Shown here in pieces: positions 115 to 19,685 of a DNA stretch of 24,667 nucleotides. The notes under the pieces are model-generated. The model had not been told where the DNA came from, ran no database searches, and worked only from the letters and a program-made list of their open reading frames with translations. The position numbers were made by a program, and so were the translations under genes. The stretch covers positions 1-24,667 of IMG/VR virus record IMGVR_UViG_3300032047_001816; one strand, 5' to 3'. The first letter of the stretch is position 1; every line of letters starts with the position of its first letter. Source of the stretch: a virus.

Positions 115-1065
115 TCAATCAAGCAAATTACTTTGTTGTATTTTTTTGCCAATGTACTCAGAGCATTGAGGTACAATGGCATTGCCAAGTGCTCTCAATC
201 GAGCCAATCTATTGGAAAGCCCATCATCTCTGTGACGAAGTGAGGGTTGAGTCGGAAAAGTTTGCCAATAGTTTTGGTGCTCTGTTTGTTGTATCTGGCT
301 GGGTTGACAGTTGATGTATTGAGTTTGTAATTCTTGTGACTTGGTGCATATCTGTTGCCTGTCTCTATCAATCTGATGAGACTGTTGTTGCCCATCTTGT
401 CTGGGTCTGATTTGCATGGTGTTGGTAGTAGTTTCACAAAACGTGCCAGGCCTACTGACCCATTCACACCGTTGTTGCTGATTTTTCGAGGTTTGCCTTT
501 CTTTGTCCAGATTATTTTTGTGTTGTCGTTCATGATGCTGCCTACTGTTGCATCGCTTGACGTTGGGGTAGGCAACGACAAAGACTCTTTTTCTGAGATG
601 GGGTGCACCAAATTGTTTTGCTGATATAGTGCACCATTCTGCATCATACCCGATTTGGGCCAAGTCTTGCAAGACAATGTGCATGCCTCTGTTTTTCCAC
701 AACAGGGCTGGCACGTTTTCCAACACTGCAACTCTTGGCTGTAGGTGATTGATAAGTCTGTGCATTTGCCTCCAAAGACCCGACCTGTCACCATGCTCAA
801 TGCCTTTGCCTTTGCCTGCTGCTGAGATGTCTTGGCAGGGAAATCCGCCACAAACAATGTCAACTGATTGTATTTTTTCATAGTCAATCTCTCTTATATC
901 ATCATATATTGTTGCATCAGGCCAGTGTTTTTGCAATATGGTCTGACAGTATTTATTTTGCTCTATTTGCCAAATTGTTTTGCTGTTTAGTATGCCTCTC
1001 TCAAGCCCTAACTCAAAGCCACCAATGCCAGCAAAACAACTGCCTATTGTTATTTCATTACTCAT
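115..1065 (-). CDS. DNA (cytosine-5-)-methyltransferase
   Basis: A 316-residue protein with the ordered motifs of C5-cytosine methyltransferases. Motif I is SCFAGIGGFELGLE (residues 9-22), which binds S-adenosylmethionine. Motif IV is GGFPCQDIS (73-81) with catalytic Cys77, motif VI is ENV (116-118), motif VIII is FGAPHLRKR (152-160), and motif X is RALGNAIVPQ (291-300). The segment between motifs VIII and X (about 170-280), where the target recognition domain normally sits, is Gln/Arg/Asn-rich and looks unlike a folded domain. That same stretch carries the second gene at 195-881 in another frame, which probably explains its composition. The start overlaps the upstream stop (TAATG). It should modify phage DNA against host restriction or for regulation; the target sequence cannot be read from the protein. 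It is the last gene of its operon. Confidence 0.93.
   Translation of the reverse strand: MSNEITIGSCFAGIGGFELGLERGILNSKTIWQIEQNKYCQTILQKHWPDATIYDDIREIDYEKIQSVDIVCGGFPCQDISAAGKGKGIEHGDRSGLWRQMHRLINHLQPRVAVLENVPALLWKNRGMHIVLQDLAQIGYDAEWCTISAKQFGAPHLRKRVFVVAYPNVKRCNSRQHHERQHKNNLDKERQTSKNQQQRCEWVSRPGTFCETTTNTMQIRPRQDGQQQSHQIDRDRQQICTKSQELQTQYINCQPSQIQQTEHQNYWQTFPTQPSLRHRDDGLSNRLARLRALGNAIVPQCSEYIGKKIQQSNLLD
195..881 (-). CDS. Overprinted protein nested in the methyltransferase gene (+1 frame), LPTPxxSD / LNPxFVxxMMGFP family
   Basis: A 228-residue open frame lies wholly inside the C5-methyltransferase gene on the same strand, shifted +1. I chose ATG at 881, preceded by AAGAGAGATTGACT, a purine-rich ribosome-site-like sequence; a TTG two codons earlier is possible. 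The product is not random. It shows QLTLFVADFPAKTS (6-19), WKTCQ (54-58), TWPKSGMMQNG (73-83), LPTPTSSD (103-110), a second LPTP box (152-155) and ends in LNPHFVTEMMGFPIDWLD (211-228). From memory, phage proteins with this motif series (DFPARTS, WPRSGM, WPTPTASD, LNPxWVEWLMGFP) are common near dcm-like genes and have no established biochemical role. Frame arithmetic explains the kinship: GFPCQDIS of the methyltransferase reads DFPAKTS one base on, and the DNA for its motif X end reads MGFPIDWLD. Whether it is translated here is inferred from motif conservation and CpG content. Confidence 0.65.
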   Translation of the reverse strand: MKKYNQLTLFVADFPAKTSQQQAKAKALSMVTGRVFGGKCTDLSITYSQELQCWKTCQPCCGKTEACTLSCKTWPKSGMMQNGALYQQNNLVHPISEKESLSLPTPTSSDATVGSIMNDNTKIIWTKKGKPRKISNNGVNGSVGLARFVKLLPTPCKSDPDKMGNNSLIRLIETGNRYAPSHKNYKLNTSTVNPARYNKQSTKTIGKLFRLNPHFVTEMMGFPIDWLD

Positions 1066-4525: not shown

Positions 4526-5152
4526 CTATGTAAAAAGTTTTAATTGTCTTTGATGTTGCTTAAGTCTGCTTGATGCAGCTGCAAAATATTCCTCATCAAT
4601 CTCATATGCTGTCAAGTCAAAATCCATATCATGACAAGCAATAGCGATTGAGCCAGAGCCAAGATGTGTGTCAAGTATGCTGTCACCTTCTTTGGCATAT
4701 TTTTGCAAAATCCAAGAATACAAAGATATTGGTTTTTGTGTTGGATGTACTCTCTTGATGCCAGCGTTATAATCTTGTATATGATTGTATTTGTATTTTC
4801 TGACACTGCTATCAAATGAAGTCCAAGCCAACTCACAATCTGACATGGGATTTGTGCCATTGTTCTTATCCCATACCAACATGCATCTTGTATTTGTTAA
4901 ATAATCAAGAAAGTAATTACCACCCCAAATTATTTGATTTTTGCTGACTCTCTTTAACTCATCAAAATATTGCTTAGATGGAATTGCATCATCCCATGTC
5001 TTTTCTTTATGAATTTCTCTTTTCCATTTACCAAATGAGATGCCTTTTGCTTGTTTGATGCCATAGGGTGGGTCTACAACAGCCAAATCAAATTGATTGT
5101 CTGCCATCTCAAGCATTGCACTGAGACAGTCTGTGTTGTGTAGTGTTATCAT
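4526..5152 (-). CDS. DNA methyltransferase (DPPY, beta class, N6-adenine or N4-cytosine)
   Basis: A 208-residue amino-methyltransferase. The catalytic motif VDPPYGIK (about residues 26-33) comes first. A central region with CMLVWDKNNGTNPMSDCELAWTSF follows, then HPTQKP (about 136-141) and the SAM-binding motif I as LDTHLGSGSIAIAC (about 159-172), with YEIDEEYF after it. Motif IV before motif I defines the beta class. DPPY in this class transfers a methyl group to the exocyclic amine of A or C, and the specificity cannot be read. The enzyme is short, with little room for a recognition domain, as is common for phage versions. It overlaps rusA by 4 nt (ATGA) and has AAGGAGA before the start. It gives this phage a second methylation activity besides the C5 enzyme. 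Confidence 0.92.
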   Translation of the reverse strand: MITLHNTDCLSAMLEMADNQFDLAVVDPPYGIKQAKGISFGKWKREIHKEKTWDDAIPSKQYFDELKRVSKNQIIWGGNYFLDYLTNTRCMLVWDKNNGTNPMSDCELAWTSFDSSVRKYKYNHIQDYNAGIKRVHPTQKPISLYSWILQKYAKEGDSILDTHLGSGSIAIACHDMDFDLTAYEIDEEYFAAASSRLKQHQRQLKLFT

Positions 5153-7546: not shown

Positions 7547-9256
7547 TTATAACTGTTTCACATTTGCTATGTGGTTATGTTCTATTTTTAAATCAAAAAC
7601 CCAGTGTGTCATATTCCATTGCTTTGCAATTATCTGTGCTTTCTGTTGGTCAATGGCTATGTCAAGATCTGTCAACTCTATAATATCACCAAGTTGCAAA
7701 AATCCATACTCTGGAGATGCTGCATATTGTGTGACATATGTTGGCATTGATTTGAATCGTATCATATCAAGTGCAATCTTAAATGCTGTCACTCTATCAT
7801 ATACATATGCCAACTCAAATGTTGCTGATTTTGCACCATATATCTGTTGTGATACTACTGCATATTGAGATGCTGTGATTGCAATTGGAGTGCCTAAAAA
7901 GCCAAAACTTGATGAGTACTCAGGTATATTTGCCTGCACTTTTGCCTTTGAAATATATGATTGTCTTGCACCATCCCATGCAAATCTAACTGTCACCTCA
8001 TTGATGACATCACTTGGCTCTGACATTGGAATCAATGCACCTAGTCTGTAAAAAACAGCACCAGCCTCAATGACATCAGCAACAGGCACATCAACACCCA
8101 AAGCCAACATATTGAGACGAGGTGCAAGTCCGTCTTTTGACAAGATGATTTCAACTGGCAAATATGGCAATATATTTTCTTGTAACCAAGCAAGACCAGT
8201 GATTTTTTCATTTGTGATAACACCTGCAAATTTGTACTCATTGAGATATTGCCTCAAGTTGTACCAAGATGCATAATCAATGTTTGCATTGCTAGATGTC
8301 AAAGCCCACATACAAATGTCACCACCGCCCTCAAGAACATCATCACCAAAAGGAGACTTGAGGCCTTTGTCAATTTGCCCCCAATACTCAAGTTGATCAT
8401 CTGTCAAAGGGTCTGTGATATTTCCACCAAAGTAGCTGCTATCAACAGCAGCATATGATGTTGATCTCTCATTGATTTTTTGCAAAAAACCACTTTTCAA
8501 AAAATCACTGTACAAGTTTTCAGCATCAAGCACATCACCTGTGTCAGTCTCTGTGTTACCATCTTTGACATCAACAGATGCACTCATCACCTTGTGACAT
8601 GCCAAAGTAAAATTATAATCTGATAAATCTGAGTCGAGTCCAAGATAGTACATTGGCACTGGATGCACATCAACACTGTCAACTGTATTGAGTCGACCAA
8701 AAACAACAGGTATTGTCTTGCCAAAGTTTCTCTCATCTAGTGATGCAAATCCCGCCTCAGTAAATCCAAGCAAACCCTCATCAATGATATGTGTTTTGTT
8801 GACACCATCAATCAAAGTCCTAGTGATGACAAAACTATCTGACTCCAATGCAAACTCAACATATGATTTTGACCTCTCTGGATATCCAAATATTGGCTGA
8901 GACACTTTGCCTGTTGCCAAAATAACTCTCTGCTCATAATCTGTCTCACCATCAAGCACATATGCCAACTCACAAGGTGCATTGTCAAGCACATTGCCTT
9001 TTTTGTATTCATCAGCAACATCAACACCAGCAAAAAACAACGCAAATGGCACACTCAATGACTCATAATCAGCACCAAGCACTCTGCTTTTTTGTTGATA
9101 TTGAGGGTCATCCAAATGATTGTCAAAATTATAGCTGTTGCCAGAGGCTGTCAATACAATTGGCTTTGTTGCAAATCTGTATATGTAACCACCCCATGTG
9201 ACACTCAACAAAAATATTGGCTGCCCTCCAATCCATCTGTCTCTATATTCTGACAT
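7547..9256 (-). CDS. Tail-associated structural protein, distal tail or baseplate candidate
   Basis: A 569-residue protein without signal peptide or clear membrane segment. Beta-rich with acidic loops. Features that fit tail-tip proteins are the N-terminal strand pattern GQPIFLLSVTWGGYIYRFATKPI, an early segment about the response to Y/F-rich strands, and FGKTIPVVFGRL (about 178-189), a phrase seen in phage distal tail and host-specificity proteins. The last 100 residues have PEYGFLQLGDIIELTDLDI and end in a strand-rich unit. It follows the large receptor-type protein with a TGATG overlap (ATG at 9256, a TTG precedes it) and comes before the wall enzyme. I cannot name a family; structural tail protein is a safe call and the exact position is not. 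Confidence 0.55.
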   Translation of the reverse strand: MSEYRDRWIGGQPIFLLSVTWGGYIYRFATKPIVLTASGNSYNFDNHLDDPQYQQKSRVLGADYESLSVPFALFFAGVDVADEYKKGNVLDNAPCELAYVLDGETDYEQRVILATGKVSQPIFGYPERSKSYVEFALESDSFVITRTLIDGVNKTHIIDEGLLGFTEAGFASLDERNFGKTIPVVFGRLNTVDSVDVHPVPMYYLGLDSDLSDYNFTLACHKVMSASVDVKDGNTETDTGDVLDAENLYSDFLKSGFLQKINERSTSYAAVDSSYFGGNITDPLTDDQLEYWGQIDKGLKSPFGDDVLEGGGDICMWALTSSNANIDYASWYNLRQYLNEYKFAGVITNEKITGLAWLQENILPYLPVEIILSKDGLAPRLNMLALGVDVPVADVIEAGAVFYRLGALIPMSEPSDVINEVTVRFAWDGARQSYISKAKVQANIPEYSSSFGFLGTPIAITASQYAVVSQQIYGAKSATFELAYVYDRVTAFKIALDMIRFKSMPTYVTQYAASPEYGFLQLGDIIELTDLDIAIDQQKAQIIAKQWNMTHWVFDLKIEHNHIANVKQL

Positions 9257-12200
9257 CAAACCTCTCTCAGCACTATAGTGCTCACTCTGAATGCCTCATC
9301 AATTAACTCATCACCAATGACAGACTCAATTGATATATCACCTTGTAACACAGCAAGCATTTGATCATCATCTCTTTTATATACAACTCCGTAGGGAGTT
9401 GGTTGGCCATCTGATGTGTCTATTGCTGGCAAATATACCAATGGCCTCATCTGACCTTGTAATTTTGTTATCAATCCAAGCATCATGCCAGGCACATCAA
9501 ACTGAGATGCTGTTGCCAAAGATACAACATTTGAGTTGAGTTTGATATAATTTGGTGCAACATTTGAGCCTGACAGTGTCCTCAAATCAATTGGATCTGA
9601 CCAACTCACTCTCACTGTACGTTTGGAGGCTCTGAGATTCCTGCTGTATATTGTACCAGATTGCAACTCTTCACTGATTGTGCCTGAGTCTCTTGATATT
9701 GTTCTACCTCTGCCATATTGCTGACCTGGTATAAGCACAGGCCCAATGCTCATGTGACTACAACTAAAATATTTGTCTTTGTTTTCTCTAGTTACAAATT
9801 CAATTTTTATCTGGTCATACGTTGGTGCACCTGTCATATTCATGACTATAGTGATATCTTTTGGTATCAAATAAGCAATCTGATTGACTGTGTCAGGGCC
9901 TGTGTTGCTGAATGTATCCTCAACATAGAACACTGGTGTTGTTGGTATTCTTGTGCCATCTCTTGTCAAAGCACCAGATGTGTTTGTCACAACTTTGCTG
10001 TATGTTGTTATTACACTTGTATTGTCAACTATCTCAATGCACCAACCTGCACACTCATTATAATTGATAAATGAGCCTGATTGTGTTGACTCAGAGACTA
10101 TCAATGCACCTGCTTGCTCTTTATAATAGAATTGTAATCTTGTATCAATAGTATCTCTCAGAGTCCAAGCACCAGCACCCTCTTTGCTGTAGATCTTAAA
10201 TTGACCTGCATTGAGTCCTTTGAGATGTATGCCAATGCCAGCAAAATGTGCAAATGGTGAGCCTTGCATATCTTTGATGCTGTCAAACACAATCTCTTGT
10301 GCAGGTATTGCACCAGATGGCACACTTTGAGACCTCCAACCTGATTGAGTGCTTGGATGATTATCATAAAACATTTTATCAATACCAAATGCATATCTGG
10401 TTTTGATTTGATACTCATCATTGATGATTGCAGGGCCGTCAGCAGTTGTGATTTTGACACCATCTGCAACATATATGTATTGACCAGCTGGAGGGTACAA
10501 CATTGCACTCAACTCTGGTGCTGATGTCTCCATCTGATTGCCAGTGTTCAAACCTGCTGCAACATGAAACTCATGCCACCAAGTGCGAACATCAGCAGAT
10601 GAGCCACCATGCCCAAATGTCACCTCAGCACCTGTGATGCCAGCACCTCCATTGACCAATGCAGTTGTTGATGCACCAGGTTGATAATCTCTGTTAAAAA
10701 CTGTATCAGCATTAAAAAACCACATTTTGACATCATTGTTTGCTACTGCAATCAAAACCTCAGTCACAGCATTGATTGCCATAGTTGAGCCAATGTTTGT
10801 GCTGCCATGTGCATCAAACAATTGCATTGTTGATGTGCCAATGCGTAACTTGACATGATACTCTTGAGCACCATCACCAAGTTTTATGTCAACAAGTCTG
10901 CTGTCATCAGTTGTTGAGCCTCCAAAACCAATATCAAAACGCAATCGAACAATTACACCTTGAGCCATAGTTGTTGTGAATGTCTGCTTATATAGTCTAA
11001 AAGTAAGAGATGTAGTATTGACATATAGTCTGCCAATATTCACAAAGTCTGTGCCTGTGCCAGTGACAGTGAATGCAGACATTTGTGCTGGCTCAGCATA
11101 TGGCAAATATGTTGATGACCATTTTGCTTTTTTATATGTGTTTGGTGATGTGTCTAGGTATGGCATTGTCAATGTAGAGTAACCACCAAAAAACATCACA
11201 CCAAGTGTGTCATCTGAAAATAAAACTGTATGATGATTGTGTGCAAGTGCAACTCGACCTGTGACAACAACTGCATTGATTTCTTTTGGCATCTCTACAG
11301 TGCCAGATGTATCATCAATGTCATATACTGCTGACTGTGCAAGATTGTTACCAAAGTAGTTGAATGTCACACCATCTGTGCTATATCTAGCCAAAAGAGT
11401 TGGATTTGATGCACTTGCTAATTTGTAATATACATATATGTTGTCATTGTCATCAACACACATTGCCATCTCACCACTGCTCATTGCATTGTTTGTGCCA
11501 GATGTCAAAGTTGATGTCAGTGTCTGATCTACATATAGATTTGAGTTTCTTGCACTTTGGATGCTGTAAAATGCATGAGGTATCTGCAAATAATGACTCA
11601 GTGCAGTCTCTGCAATGTATGATATAACAAAACTGTTTTTGCGAACTGCCAAAGATACTCTATGATAGCCATTTGCAAAATCATTGCTGGTTGTTACTCT
11701 GGTGAATGTTGCACCTCCGTCAACTGATGCAAATTGCCAAAGTCGATTTTGAAATATTGAGCCACCACCTGTGTTGTAAAATGTTTCAATCAACAATAAC
11801 ACCTGACCAGCAACAGCAGCAACTTTGACACCTGCCATCTGATATGTTGTGCCAGAGACACCAAGTGTGATGGCAGTGTCAATCAGTCTGTCACTCAACA
11901 ATGACCAAGTGACACCATCATCTTTGCTGATATAACTCCTCAAATTTAATTGTGGATCTGTCAAACCAACTTGATTGTCATCAACTGTATGCACAAGCAA
12001 CAAATTGCCATTTGGCATTTTGCAGATGGCTGGCCTCATATTTTGAGAGGGTGTTGATGGAAATGAGTATATATTTTGAGAGGTATATGCATCATTGTCC
12101 TCTGTTCTTTTGTATGCATAGATTCTCGGAGTGAGCCAAGTTGACTCTTTGGCATAAACAACAATATAGAGTGAGCCATCATCCAAAGCAATTGAGTTTG

Positions 12201-12549
12201 GGTATTTATATGATGATGTACTTGAGCCAAAATCAGCAACATCATAGCCTGTGATGTGTGCTGGTATATCTCTGCCAAATGGCTCAGAGGCTGTTACGTT
12301 GTCAATCCAAACAAACTCACCCTTGTCACCCGCATGACCTGACCTGAGTGTTTTGATCTGTAGATCTGAGCCTGCTGTTTGCTCTCCAGTTGCTCTCAAC
12401 ACCAATGCACTTGCCTGCTGTGGTATTGGGTCACCTGCTCTGTTGCCTGCCTCAGTAAACGATGACTCAGTTGCATTGATATTGTTTTGGTCAATATCAT
12501 GAGGTATAACAAAACCTCTCAAATAATTTGGTGTGCTCTCAGTAGACAT
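9256..12549 (-). CDS. Large tail protein with BNR/beta-propeller and lectin-like regions, receptor-binding candidate
   Basis: A 1097-residue protein, the largest here. Residues about 100-480 contain Asp-box (BNR) motifs SKDDGVTWSLL, SVDGGATFTRV and STDGVTFNYFG in strand-rich surroundings, as in sialidase-type beta-propellers. Residues about 500-670 look like a concanavalin/LamG-type jelly roll (VRLRFDIGFGG...HVKLRIGTSTMQLFD...MWFFNAD...TWWHEFHVAAG). The C-terminal 400 residues are strand-rich and end in a segment likely to contact the neighbouring tail protein. I see no sialidase Arg triad, so this is probably a carbohydrate-binding rather than cleaving propeller. It follows the tape measure directly (TAG then ATG, no clear ribosome site), so translation may be coupled. 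The best guess is a tail fibre or tip protein binding surface sugars. Confidence 0.6.
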   Translation of the reverse strand: MSTESTPNYLRGFVIPHDIDQNNINATESSFTEAGNRAGDPIPQQASALVLRATGEQTAGSDLQIKTLRSGHAGDKGEFVWIDNVTASEPFGRDIPAHITGYDVADFGSSTSSYKYPNSIALDDGSLYIVVYAKESTWLTPRIYAYKRTEDNDAYTSQNIYSFPSTPSQNMRPAICKMPNGNLLLVHTVDDNQVGLTDPQLNLRSYISKDDGVTWSLLSDRLIDTAITLGVSGTTYQMAGVKVAAVAGQVLLLIETFYNTGGGSIFQNRLWQFASVDGGATFTRVTTSNDFANGYHRVSLAVRKNSFVISYIAETALSHYLQIPHAFYSIQSARNSNLYVDQTLTSTLTSGTNNAMSSGEMAMCVDDNDNIYVYYKLASASNPTLLARYSTDGVTFNYFGNNLAQSAVYDIDDTSGTVEMPKEINAVVVTGRVALAHNHHTVLFSDDTLGVMFFGGYSTLTMPYLDTSPNTYKKAKWSSTYLPYAEPAQMSAFTVTGTGTDFVNIGRLYVNTTSLTFRLYKQTFTTTMAQGVIVRLRFDIGFGGSTTDDSRLVDIKLGDGAQEYHVKLRIGTSTMQLFDAHGSTNIGSTMAINAVTEVLIAVANNDVKMWFFNADTVFNRDYQPGASTTALVNGGAGITGAEVTFGHGGSSADVRTWWHEFHVAAGLNTGNQMETSAPELSAMLYPPAGQYIYVADGVKITTADGPAIINDEYQIKTRYAFGIDKMFYDNHPSTQSGWRSQSVPSGAIPAQEIVFDSIKDMQGSPFAHFAGIGIHLKGLNAGQFKIYSKEGAGAWTLRDTIDTRLQFYYKEQAGALIVSESTQSGSFINYNECAGWCIEIVDNTSVITTYSKVVTNTSGALTRDGTRIPTTPVFYVEDTFSNTGPDTVNQIAYLIPKDITIVMNMTGAPTYDQIKIEFVTRENKDKYFSCSHMSIGPVLIPGQQYGRGRTISRDSGTISEELQSGTIYSRNLRASKRTVRVSWSDPIDLRTLSGSNVAPNYIKLNSNVVSLATASQFDVPGMMLGLITKLQGQMRPLVYLPAIDTSDGQPTPYGVVYKRDDDQMLAVLQGDISIESVIGDELIDEAFRVSTIVLREV

Positions 12550-14526
12550 CTAGTAACTCACTGGTTTGCTGTTGGTAAATATAGCACCTGATTGAGATGC
12601 TTGTTTCATAAATCTGTCAAAATGTTTGAATGGCTGCACAACAACAACACCAGCACCAGCACCGCCACCCTCTTGCAAGGCTCTGACACCTTGTGCACCT
12701 CCGAGCCTGTTCACTGTTGCTCTGTCAATCACTGCCTCACCTCTCAACACTCTTGTTGTTGTCTCATCTGGTCTCAATGGGTCATTGTTTCCAATCATAC
12801 CCATGTCAGCAGTTGGAGGCTTTTGAGCAAGCACTTTTGCAGTTGATGCAACACCTGTGGCAATGACTGCTGCTGTTTTCAATGGCTGACCTGCACTCTC
12901 AGCCAGTCCAGTTGCAATTGCAAAACCAATGTTGGCCAATGCACCTGCTTGATTGACTCTAAACAATCGCAATGCTTGTGCTCTTGCTGCCATGCCTTTT
13001 TTCTCATTTAACTCTGTCAAAGTGTTTGTGATGTCAACTGAGGAGTTAAACAAAGATTGTGCATTTGCCAACTCTTGTGCTGTGAGTTTCTTCTTTGTCT
13101 CTGCCTCTTTCTTTGCATTTTGCTCTTTTAACTCTGATAATTCTTTTTCCATCTCAAGACGTTTCTCATGTCTTAGAAACTCTAAGACTTCAATTTCTGC
13201 AACAGTTGCTTTTGCCAACTCTTGTTTTGCAAATACTTGCTCCTCTGTCTCTGCTTGTAATTGTGCAATTCTCAATCTGTTTTTTGCAGCTGTAATTTGC
13301 TCATCAATAGACTCATTCTGTTTTTCAAACTTTCTTTGTATTTCTGCCTCTTTGCCATCTTGCTTTGCTAACAAATCAAACAACTCTGTCTTTGCTTTTT
13401 CTTGGTTGTTTTGAGATTGCTTGAGTGACTCATTGATTTTGTCAAACATAGCCTCTTGCTCTTTCAACAGTGCCAGTCTTTCTTTCTCACTATCATTGAT
13501 TCCTTTGAGAGTCTTTTTGCTCTCAGATTGCTTTGCTTGTAGATCTTTGCTCTGCTGTCTCAATGACAACAACTGCTGTGCTTGTTCTTCATAGTTAATG
13601 TTTACTTCATCCTCTAACACCTTTCTTTTACTGGCAAATTGTGCCAACTCTGACTCAAGTTTTGATATCTCTTTTCTCTTTGCTGCTCTTTTGGCCATCT
13701 CTGCTGTGAGACCCTCTGAGCCTTTTCTATTCTCAATAATATCTCTCAACTCATCTTTTGTGATTTGCAGGTTTCTTGCTTTGATTTGCTGCTCTCCTCT
13801 CAATGCATCAACTCTGTCCTGTGCTGCTTTTTTCAATCGCTCAGCAATCTTGTTGGCCTCAATATCTCTCTGCATACTCTCAAAATCTGCTTTGGAGATT
13901 TGACCAGATAGCATCAAAACCTCTGCTTGTGCATTATTCAATTCAGCAGTAAAGTCACCAAGTGTGGCAATGCTACTTGCTTGTAATTTTTTAAACTCCT
14001 CAAGTTGTTTGTTCAAATCCTCTTGCTCTTTTGCCAAGTCCTCTGCTGCTTGTGCTGCTTTTTCTTGCTCTGCTGCATACTCACTGACTGCAAATGCTGC
14101 ACCTGCTGCCAACACTGCAAATGCTGCAAAGGCAGGGTTGAGAAATTTACCAACTCCAACAAGACCCTCAAGACCTCCAACACTATCAGCAGCAGCAGTT
14201 GCCATGTCCTCTAACTCTGGATTGACCAAACCAACAGCACCAGCAATGGCACTCATAACAGAGCCAACATCACCAGCAGAGCCATGCAACTCATCAAGTT
14301 GATCCTCTGCTCTGGCTGCACTGTGTGCAATCCTCTGCATTGACTTCTCTGTTGTTTTGCCAGTGTTCTTTGCTGCCTTCTCTGCCTGTCTCAGTTGTTT
14401 TTGTAGACCTGACACCATCTCTTTTGCTTGTTTCTCAGTCATGCCAGGCATTTGCTTAAGATTTGCAAGCAGTTGTTTTAAATCTGCTTTGTATGATATT
14501 TCAATACTTTTATTTACATCAGCCAT
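12550..14526 (-). CDS. Tape measure protein
   Basis: A 658-residue protein, mostly alpha-helical. Residues about 1-85 are basic helix, about 87-155 are Gly/Ala-rich and hydrophobic (GDVGSVMSAIAGAVGLV, FAAFAVLAAGAAFAVSEYAA), and about 158-490 form a long Glu/Gln/Lys coiled coil. A second Ala/Gly-rich hydrophobic region covers about 515-565 (ANIGFAIATGLAESAG). The C-terminus has TTRVLRGEAVIDRATVNRLGG, a phrase typical of tape measure C-termini. The hydrophobic segments are the parts thought to insert in the host membrane during DNA entry. Length sets tail length; at roughly 1.5 angstrom per residue this predicts a tail near 100 nm. Its place right after the tail chaperone block and one more tail gene confirms the call. 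Confidence 0.9.
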   Translation of the reverse strand: MADVNKSIEISYKADLKQLLANLKQMPGMTEKQAKEMVSGLQKQLRQAEKAAKNTGKTTEKSMQRIAHSAARAEDQLDELHGSAGDVGSVMSAIAGAVGLVNPELEDMATAAADSVGGLEGLVGVGKFLNPAFAAFAVLAAGAAFAVSEYAAEQEKAAQAAEDLAKEQEDLNKQLEEFKKLQASSIATLGDFTAELNNAQAEVLMLSGQISKADFESMQRDIEANKIAERLKKAAQDRVDALRGEQQIKARNLQITKDELRDIIENRKGSEGLTAEMAKRAAKRKEISKLESELAQFASKRKVLEDEVNINYEEQAQQLLSLRQQSKDLQAKQSESKKTLKGINDSEKERLALLKEQEAMFDKINESLKQSQNNQEKAKTELFDLLAKQDGKEAEIQRKFEKQNESIDEQITAAKNRLRIAQLQAETEEQVFAKQELAKATVAEIEVLEFLRHEKRLEMEKELSELKEQNAKKEAETKKKLTAQELANAQSLFNSSVDITNTLTELNEKKGMAARAQALRLFRVNQAGALANIGFAIATGLAESAGQPLKTAAVIATGVASTAKVLAQKPPTADMGMIGNNDPLRPDETTTRVLRGEAVIDRATVNRLGGAQGVRALQEGGGAGAGVVVVQPFKHFDRFMKQASQSGAIFTNSKPVSY

Positions 14527-18728: not shown

Positions 18729-19685
18729 TTATGTTGTTGATTTGATAAGCACACCACGATCATCATCAATAACTGAAAGCCCAAGATAAGCATGTCCAAT
18801 AATTGATGTGATAGCCTTTGCACCGTCTCTCTCCATCTCAACAAGTACCTTGCCCAAAGACAAAGACTGTCCAGCACCTGGCAATGAGGCAGGCACTCCA
18901 TCAGCATAAGCAAGAGAACCAATGCCAAACATGGCAGACTGATATGCACCACCTGCATCATTGACATATGATGATTTGAAAACATCAACACCTAACAAGT
19001 TGCCAACATAACCAGGCCCTTTTGCCATCAACATATCTTGTGTTGCTGCCATATAACTGATTGCATTTCCTGTCTCATTTCGCAATGAGTCTTGCAATTC
19101 TGTCAAAGCAACTGGATGCAGAATTGCAGCGAAAGGAGCGATTGCACCTTTGTTGCTTGCTGCTTTTTCAAGTTGAAAAATGGCATTGAAAAAGTCATCA
19201 ACTGACATTTGAGTTGCAGCAGATCCAACAATATTGGTGAAATCATCTATTGCATCAGCAGTCTTGTCAGCAAAAGATGCCTCATAAGATCCTGCCATTG
19301 ACTGAGCCAATCTAAAAGGGTCTATATCAGAACCACCAAAGCCAGTCATTGAGGCCATGTCAGTTATTTTGTATAACAATGCCAAACGTGCAACTGCTAT
19401 GTCAACATGAGCATCTGTGAATGTTTGAGTTGATGCAGCATCAGCCTCATTTGTTGGAGTCTCAAAAAGATCGAACCCGTCAAGTCCTGCCTTTCTTACT
19501 CTGATGGTATCTGAGCCAAGTCCATTGACAGAGCCAGCATATGAGATGTATGGTGAGTTTCTGAGATTGCTTGTGTCTCTCAATAAAAGATTGATTTCCT
19601 GACTGATCATGGCTGAGAGTCTAAGATCGCCCTCTAGTGCTGCATGAGTTAAGTCAGATTGTCCAAAAGTAATTGCCTTTGCCAT
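18729..19685 (-). CDS. Major capsid protein (HK97-fold type)
   Basis: A 318-residue protein with the features of HK97-type capsid subunits. N-terminal helix and loop (MISQEINLLLRDTSNLRNSPYISYAGSVNGLGSDTIRVRKAG) with an E-loop-like region, a long acidic spine-like helix (SMAGSYEASFADKTADAIDD), then a conserved block AAILHPVALTELQDSLRN and a C-terminal P-domain-like sequence GLSVIDDDRGVLIKSTT. The segment ILHPVALTELQ is a common capsid phrase, where the subunit describes a placed strand and helix before a basic loop. Position and length (about 35 kDa) fit. There is no delta-domain fused at the N-terminus, in keeping with a separate scaffold gene upstream. The ribosome site is AGAGG, 10 nt upstream. 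Confidence 0.85.
   Translation of the reverse strand: MAKAITFGQSDLTHAALEGDLRLSAMISQEINLLLRDTSNLRNSPYISYAGSVNGLGSDTIRVRKAGLDGFDLFETPTNEADAASTQTFTDAHVDIAVARLALLYKITDMASMTGFGGSDIDPFRLAQSMAGSYEASFADKTADAIDDFTNIVGSAATQMSVDDFFNAIFQLEKAASNKGAIAPFAAILHPVALTELQDSLRNETGNAISYMAATQDMLMAKGPGYVGNLLGVDVFKSSYVNDAGGAYQSAMFGIGSLAYADGVPASLPGAGQSLSLGKVLVEMERDGAKAITSIIGHAYLGLSVIDDDRGVLIKSTT

Follow-up and report, generated by a model that had tools for sequence, protein, structure and literature searches.

The locus described here raises the question of whether an open reading frame (ORF) nested out of frame within a phage DNA methyltransferase gene is a gene in its own right, and what its product would contribute. 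It lies in a 24,667-nt phage record, analyzed at its full length and referred to below as the window (24.7 kb), in which the methyltransferase gene sits on the minus strand near the low-coordinate end. We call the product of the methyltransferase frame (frame 0) alpha and that of the nested +1 frame beta. Our analysis indicates that the locus very probably encodes one C5-cytosine methyltransferase made as two polypeptides from overlapping frames, with alpha as the catalytic and beta as the specificity subunit.

Two overlapping reading frames in one gene

Both ORFs are observed directly, beta lying wholly within alpha. Their features are as follows.

115..1065, minus strand: alpha ORF, C5-cytosine methyltransferase of 316 aa (PF00145, E 7.9e-48)
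1018-1038, 832-849, 712-720, 574-594 and 169-192, minus strand: alpha-frame motifs I, IV, VI, VIII and X, respectively
195..881, minus strand: beta ORF nested in alpha (+1 frame), in the longest version that begins with ATG, 228 aa
195..794, minus strand: beta ORF when begun at ATG 794, the start that the family supports, 199 aa, with AAAGG 8 nt upstream
825..845, minus strand: DFPAKTS, motif IV as read in the +1 frame; it lies upstream of the beta start supported by the family
633..665, minus strand: beta TWPKSGMMQNG over alpha GYDAEW, a dual-coding zone with lowered third-position rate
324..575, minus strand: putative beta recognition modules, whole region; the alpha frame here is an unconstrained Gln-rich stretch
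429-575, minus strand: module 1, beginning LPTPTSSD
324-428, minus strand: module 2, beginning LPTPCKSD
198..254, minus strand: motif IX-like end of beta, RLNPHFVTEMMGFPIDWLD; the stop codon of beta comes next, at 195-197

Alpha shows the hallmarks of a PF00145 C5-cytosine methyltransferase, i.e., motifs I, IV (PCQ), VI (ENV), VIII and X together with a Rossmann-like catalytic domain, and its motif X (169-192) lies beyond the beta stop at 195. The first-pass annotation had described a +1 frame open for 228 codons at 195-881 and a series of motifs within it, all of which are present; if a TTG is accepted as start, beta extends to 195-887 (230 aa). Beta has no match in Pfam or NCBIfam and does belong to a phage protein family, as had been proposed: it matches PHROG 1008 along its length (E 3.8e-23, residues 3-230, positions 32-280 of the 329 in the profile). 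This is almost the whole profile, whose label 'DNA methyltransferase' gives no hint that its members sit out of frame inside PHROG 363 genes.

Such an opening is not expected by chance. When the synonymous codons of alpha were shuffled 20,000 times and the longest +1 open run was scored, the mean was 81 codons compared to 232 observed (p = 2e-4). The other genes of the window were mostly unremarkable, with a lowest p of 0.003 among 32 tests on 16 genes and a longest +1 run of 144 codons. Among related loci, the +1 frame was significantly long (p<0.01) in 54 of 61, a series which is not free of ascertainment because its loci were recruited by similarity to beta.

Stop codons are avoided in both frames. 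In 86 non-redundant loci, we counted 2 stops in the +1 frame from codon +5 to codon +99 past the start region, where ~302 were expected, and far upstream of the start region observed and expected numbers were about equal. The drop adjoins a cluster of start codons (71 observed versus 43 expected at -4 to -2). Alpha in turn stays open through motif IX of beta in 138 of 139 loci in an unconditioned count; the more extreme figure of 0 alpha-frame stops versus 347 arises partly by construction, since these loci had to have motif X.

The start of beta is plausibly either ATG 794 or ATG 881, the purine-rich stretches upstream of both (AAGAGAG ~8 nt upstream of ATG 881) being equally plausible as judged from the sequence. 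ATG 794 is favored by the family, in which start codons cluster at this position and stop avoidance sets in there, ~30 codons farther downstream; in some relatives an in-frame stop lies directly upstream, and at several loci the +1 stop is followed directly by an ATG at the family start position. The start is not uniform, as some loci lack ATG, GTG or TTG at the consensus place.

Frame of selection along the locus

The frame under selection was counted in 15 independent pairs of related loci, for which dN/dS was pooled; in the register of this locus, the first base of an alpha codon falls on a third beta position, and the third base of an alpha codon on a second beta position. We observe that the selected frame changes along the gene. 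Before motif IV, differences at alpha positions 1:2:3 number 96:56:246, with a dN/dS of 0.14 for alpha and 1.11 for the beta frame. The picture is similar from IV to VIII (127:65:248), where alpha and beta frame have values of 0.17 and 1.36 between IV and VI, and 0.24 and 0.76 between VI and VIII. Across the recognition region, from VIII to X, the ratio becomes 250:84:54, position 1 exceeding position 3 in 15 of 15 pairs, and dN/dS is 2.09 (1.55-3.25) for alpha and 0.13 (0.09-0.17) for beta. Counts around motif IX are 70:24:38 (dN/dS at IX 0.62 for alpha, 0.25 for beta), and from motif X onward 32:21:104 (0.12 at X for alpha, 1.30 for the beta frame).

From VIII to X, constraint thus acts on the nested frame instead of the methyltransferase frame, and we conclude that the nested ORF is genuine and not a shadow ORF. 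Two suggestions of the first-pass annotation are thereby borne out: the +1 frame holds a second protein-coding gene, in line with the low nested-frame dN/dS in the recognition region and the avoidance of stops, and the Gln-rich region of the methyltransferase is shaped by the other frame. Its reading of DFPAKTS as motif IV shifted by one base is right as to register, but the peptide is not conserved, the nearest relative (locus L010) having GSHAKTS instead. Since the +1 frame between IV and VI is unconstrained, DFPAKTS is an unconstrained shadow of motif IV.

Third-position rates in 31 pairs follow the same course. In alpha, the rate starts at ~0.4-0.5; over the last 40 codons ahead of VIII it is down to 0.16-0.24, it reaches 0.056 in the recognition region, and at X it is back at 0.44. 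Between the window and L010, beta positions 1, 2 and 3 differ at 2, 0 and 10 sites in the shared module, and the 20 codons of motif IX (FRLNP...WLD) differ at third beta positions only (0, 0, 6).

Structure predictions are compatible with this division. The AlphaFold2 model of alpha, based on 87 sequences, has pLDDT values mostly above 90 in the catalytic domain and aligns with M.HhaI over 214 residues (VIA-align Z 24.8), whereas residues 203-264, 273-278 and 286-289, i.e., most of 203-289, fall below 50. Alpha is thus modeled as a HhaI-like catalytic domain with a disordered "recognition region". Beta alone (102 sequences) was predicted poorly, with a pLDDT of 60 and a pTM of 0.29; its better parts are the motif IX helix and a small group of strands in module 1. 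A poor lone model fits a subunit that needs its partner but is no proof of one. Searches by fold and sequence did not tie beta to any known target-recognition domain: Foldseek with the beta model returned no PDB match at E<=0.001, the top rows being mostly WW domains at chance level, and no meaningful hit emerged when the beta alignment was used as a profile against the PDB.

Related loci and exchange of putative recognition modules

We collected more than 180 related loci, mostly metagenomic, by similarity searching in phages, in viral contigs and in species genomes. Alpha alone as query against viral contigs recovered only L010. A beta-like sequence was found in the +1 frame of alpha at every testable locus, and the +1 register held in 182 of 182 loci with both matches, to which short matches over motifs IV-VIII contribute. 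Within one bacterial class, 13 of 369 genomes had PHROG 1008 matches; the 14 control genomes had none. Some nested +1 pairs had already been called by their depositors: as in the window, beta lies in the +1 frame in Escherichia phage K1ind3 (ORF30/ORF29) and Paenibacillus phage Leyra (gp61/gp62), with both genes called and the nested one annotated merely as 'Mte8-like' or 'methyltransferase'. Our literature searches found no description of a family-wide nested arrangement.

Beta holds one to several segments that start with LPTPxxSD. These modules are exchangeable and recur in distant backgrounds: 419 of 747 pairs of related modules stand at different ordinal positions, and in 61 pairs module identity exceeds that of the alpha catalytic parts, themselves <50% identical, by over 15 points (pairs without an alpha-part match were assigned 25% alpha identity). 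The window and L010 differ through a swap of module 1, and module 1 of the window is 65% identical to that of L097, the two alphas being 38% identical. Judging from their sequences, the modules may bind DNA. Motif IX was assigned to beta by pattern, position and frame of selection; a profile comparison of the beta segment with known motif IX gave no significant match.

Several relatives distribute the same parts differently. In the phages Firecracker, Blue7, Backyardigan and phiBT1, alpha ends shortly after VIII and beta runs on into X. In Streptomyces phage phiBT1 (L177:1518-2622), gene 9.1 is recorded as a DNA methylase that 'may be inactive'; the +1 ORF behind it, which the record does not annotate, has LPTP modules together with IX and X and would complete the methylase. 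Silvy gp53, DLane gp65 and prophiGD91-2 gp27 share their type of module as well as motifs IX and X with the window, but in them IX, X and most modules are found in one alpha-frame polypeptide. The alpha-frame enzyme of prophiGD91-2 aligns to HhaI over motifs I-VIII only. In Silvy and DLane, the first two modules lie in the +1 frame and are selected there (13:4:2 over codons 180-225). For this reason the two phages are no pure single-chain control; only the part that begins at alpha codon 320 can be used as one. Their methyltransferases (L174:1443-3095 and L175:901-2295) carry modules in both frames, each set selected in its own.

A further variant occurs in L102, L104, L109 and a Megaera plasmid, where the modules are read in +1 and both IX and X in the frame of alpha, with selection to match; this layout is also noted at L182:1820-2842. 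With motif IX in the alpha frame in L102, L104, L109 and L182, the split point varies. DLane (L175) and Inventum (L180) are ~97% identical over their first 542 bases (motifs I-VIII) and 93% identical over the last module, IX and X, and the frame of their C-terminal part relative to motifs I-VIII differs; thus, the arrangement changes between close relatives.

A candidate two-polypeptide enzyme

In the arrangement we favor, alpha would supply the large catalytic domain with SAM binding, the PCQ catalytic loop and motifs I-VIII, and would also bring motif X, which a long linker without structure separates from them. Beta would start inside alpha, at ATG 794 or ATG 881, and supply the small domain, composed of one or more exchangeable LPTPxxSD target-recognition modules and motif IX. 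The two polypeptides would bind each other, and beta would direct the catalytic domain to its DNA site, so that an exchange of +1-frame modules could give a phage a different specificity. Translation of beta from its own start and assembly of alpha and beta into an active enzyme are both suggested by the sequence analysis, and the biological role may be self-modification against host restriction.

A layout of this kind is known from one characterized enzyme, and here it is seen throughout a large family. In M.EcoHK31I, the small polypeptide is encoded within the gene of the large one in another frame, and M.EaeI is a two-polypeptide C5-methyltransferase of the same type; methylation by enzymes of the M.EcoHK31I type takes both polypeptides. 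The small ORF of the window is likewise placed inside the gene of the large one in another frame. The large polypeptide of M.EcoHK31I has motifs I-VIII and X, the small one has motif IX, and the target-recognition domain is predicted in the large polypeptide (PMC3404938). The window agrees in the motifs of its large polypeptide and, by pattern and selected frame, in the separate small polypeptide with motif IX; it departs from this description in that its recognition region is constrained only in the frame of the small polypeptide, alpha being predicted as disordered there. The window enzyme may therefore work like M.EcoHK31I, a likeness drawn from descriptions that makes no claim of homology. 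A search for an EcoHK31I relative in E. coli plasmids gave enzymes without a long +1 ORF (75-83 codons), and one in E. coli genomes only a 94-base similarity, the record fetched being an annotated pseudogene.

The small subunit of the split enzyme M.AquI carries motif IX as well as motif X (PMC3404938). As there, the two polypeptides of the window would together make one enzyme; motif X is in alpha in the window, and the Firecracker-type actinophages are closer to M.AquI. With their modules in series, members of the window family may also resemble multispecific C5-methyltransferases. In the enzymes of this type from Bacillus phages, several recognition modules follow one another in one polypeptide and one frame, which differs from the two frames used here.

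Could the same pattern arise from a single polypeptide? Ribosomal frameshifting would translate I-VIII in frame 0, slip to +1 for the modules and IX, and slip back for X. The order of the constrained segments is indeed the domain order of a single-chain C5-methyltransferase, and in the Firecracker type, where beta reaches motif X, one shift would yield a whole enzyme. The window would need two, however, and alpha is kept open right through the region; moreover, the +1 frame is open for 60-90 codons upstream of its strongly constrained part, an opening that starts at the start-codon cluster and sometimes directly behind a stop. We regard frameshifting as unlikely.

According to the first-pass annotation, the companion family arose when the methyltransferase gene was overprinted, which would make beta a new protein with a function separate from that of alpha. 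The N-terminal ~75 residues of beta, over motifs IV-VIII, would suit such an origin: they have no counterpart in the alpha-frame polypeptides of the actinophages and are weakly constrained just before VIII. Together with the alpha frame across the recognition region, they look overprinted. The core of beta, however, sits at the target-recognition region and motif IX, holding the place, the modules and the motif of the alpha-frame recognition domain of Silvy, DLane and prophiGD91-2, while alpha of the window is modeled without an ordered recognition domain of its own. As actinophages read the same modules and IX in frame with X, the core is the methyltransferase's own small domain and not a new overprinted protein, and an overprinted origin of the companion family is very improbable.

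That only the methyltransferase frame is translated and selected, with +1 conservation as a by-product, is hardly credible: DFPAKTS and the TWPKSGMMQNG region do track conserved methyltransferase motifs, IV-VI shows no +1 constraint, and nearly all homologues are in register with a methyltransferase gene, as the first-pass annotation had expected of a spurious ORF, but its other expectation, constraint in the methyltransferase frame only, is reversed in the recognition region, +1 stops are avoided far beyond expectation, and module sequences read in the +1 frame stay conserved from one background to another.

Beyond the window, we think it fairly likely that catalytic and specificity domains occupy two overlapping frames throughout a large family of C5-methyltransferases from phages and prophages, and that recognition modules move as cassettes able to lie in either frame of one gene. 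Specificity is normally predicted from the annotated methyltransferase frame, which in the recognition region is a by-product. If the two-polypeptide reading is true, the 'recognition region' of that frame is mostly a meaningless linker, and the putative specificity determinant is the +1 product, which is often unannotated and omitted from many records. Well over 100 loci offer long overlapping genes at the level of domains with a clean swap of the selected frame, which could help to calibrate the detection of overlaps and to study the splitting of a protein into two subunits while its DNA stays in place. M.EcoHK31I, long a single example, would become testable on the scale of a family.

Elsewhere in the window, long genes occupy the structural region (7547-9259, 9256-12549, 12550-14526 and 18729-19685); of these four genes, the three that we searched lacked any PHROG match at E<=0.001, so that the phage structural module is largely unrecognized. 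A second DNA methyltransferase gene lies at 4526-5152 on the minus strand (PHROG 67, E 5e-46), near genes for RusA, HNH and DnaQ-like exonuclease proteins. At the very end of the record, positions 2-10 and 22-30 carry two perfect TTATCCACA repeats, 20 bases apart, which correspond to the DnaA-box consensus.
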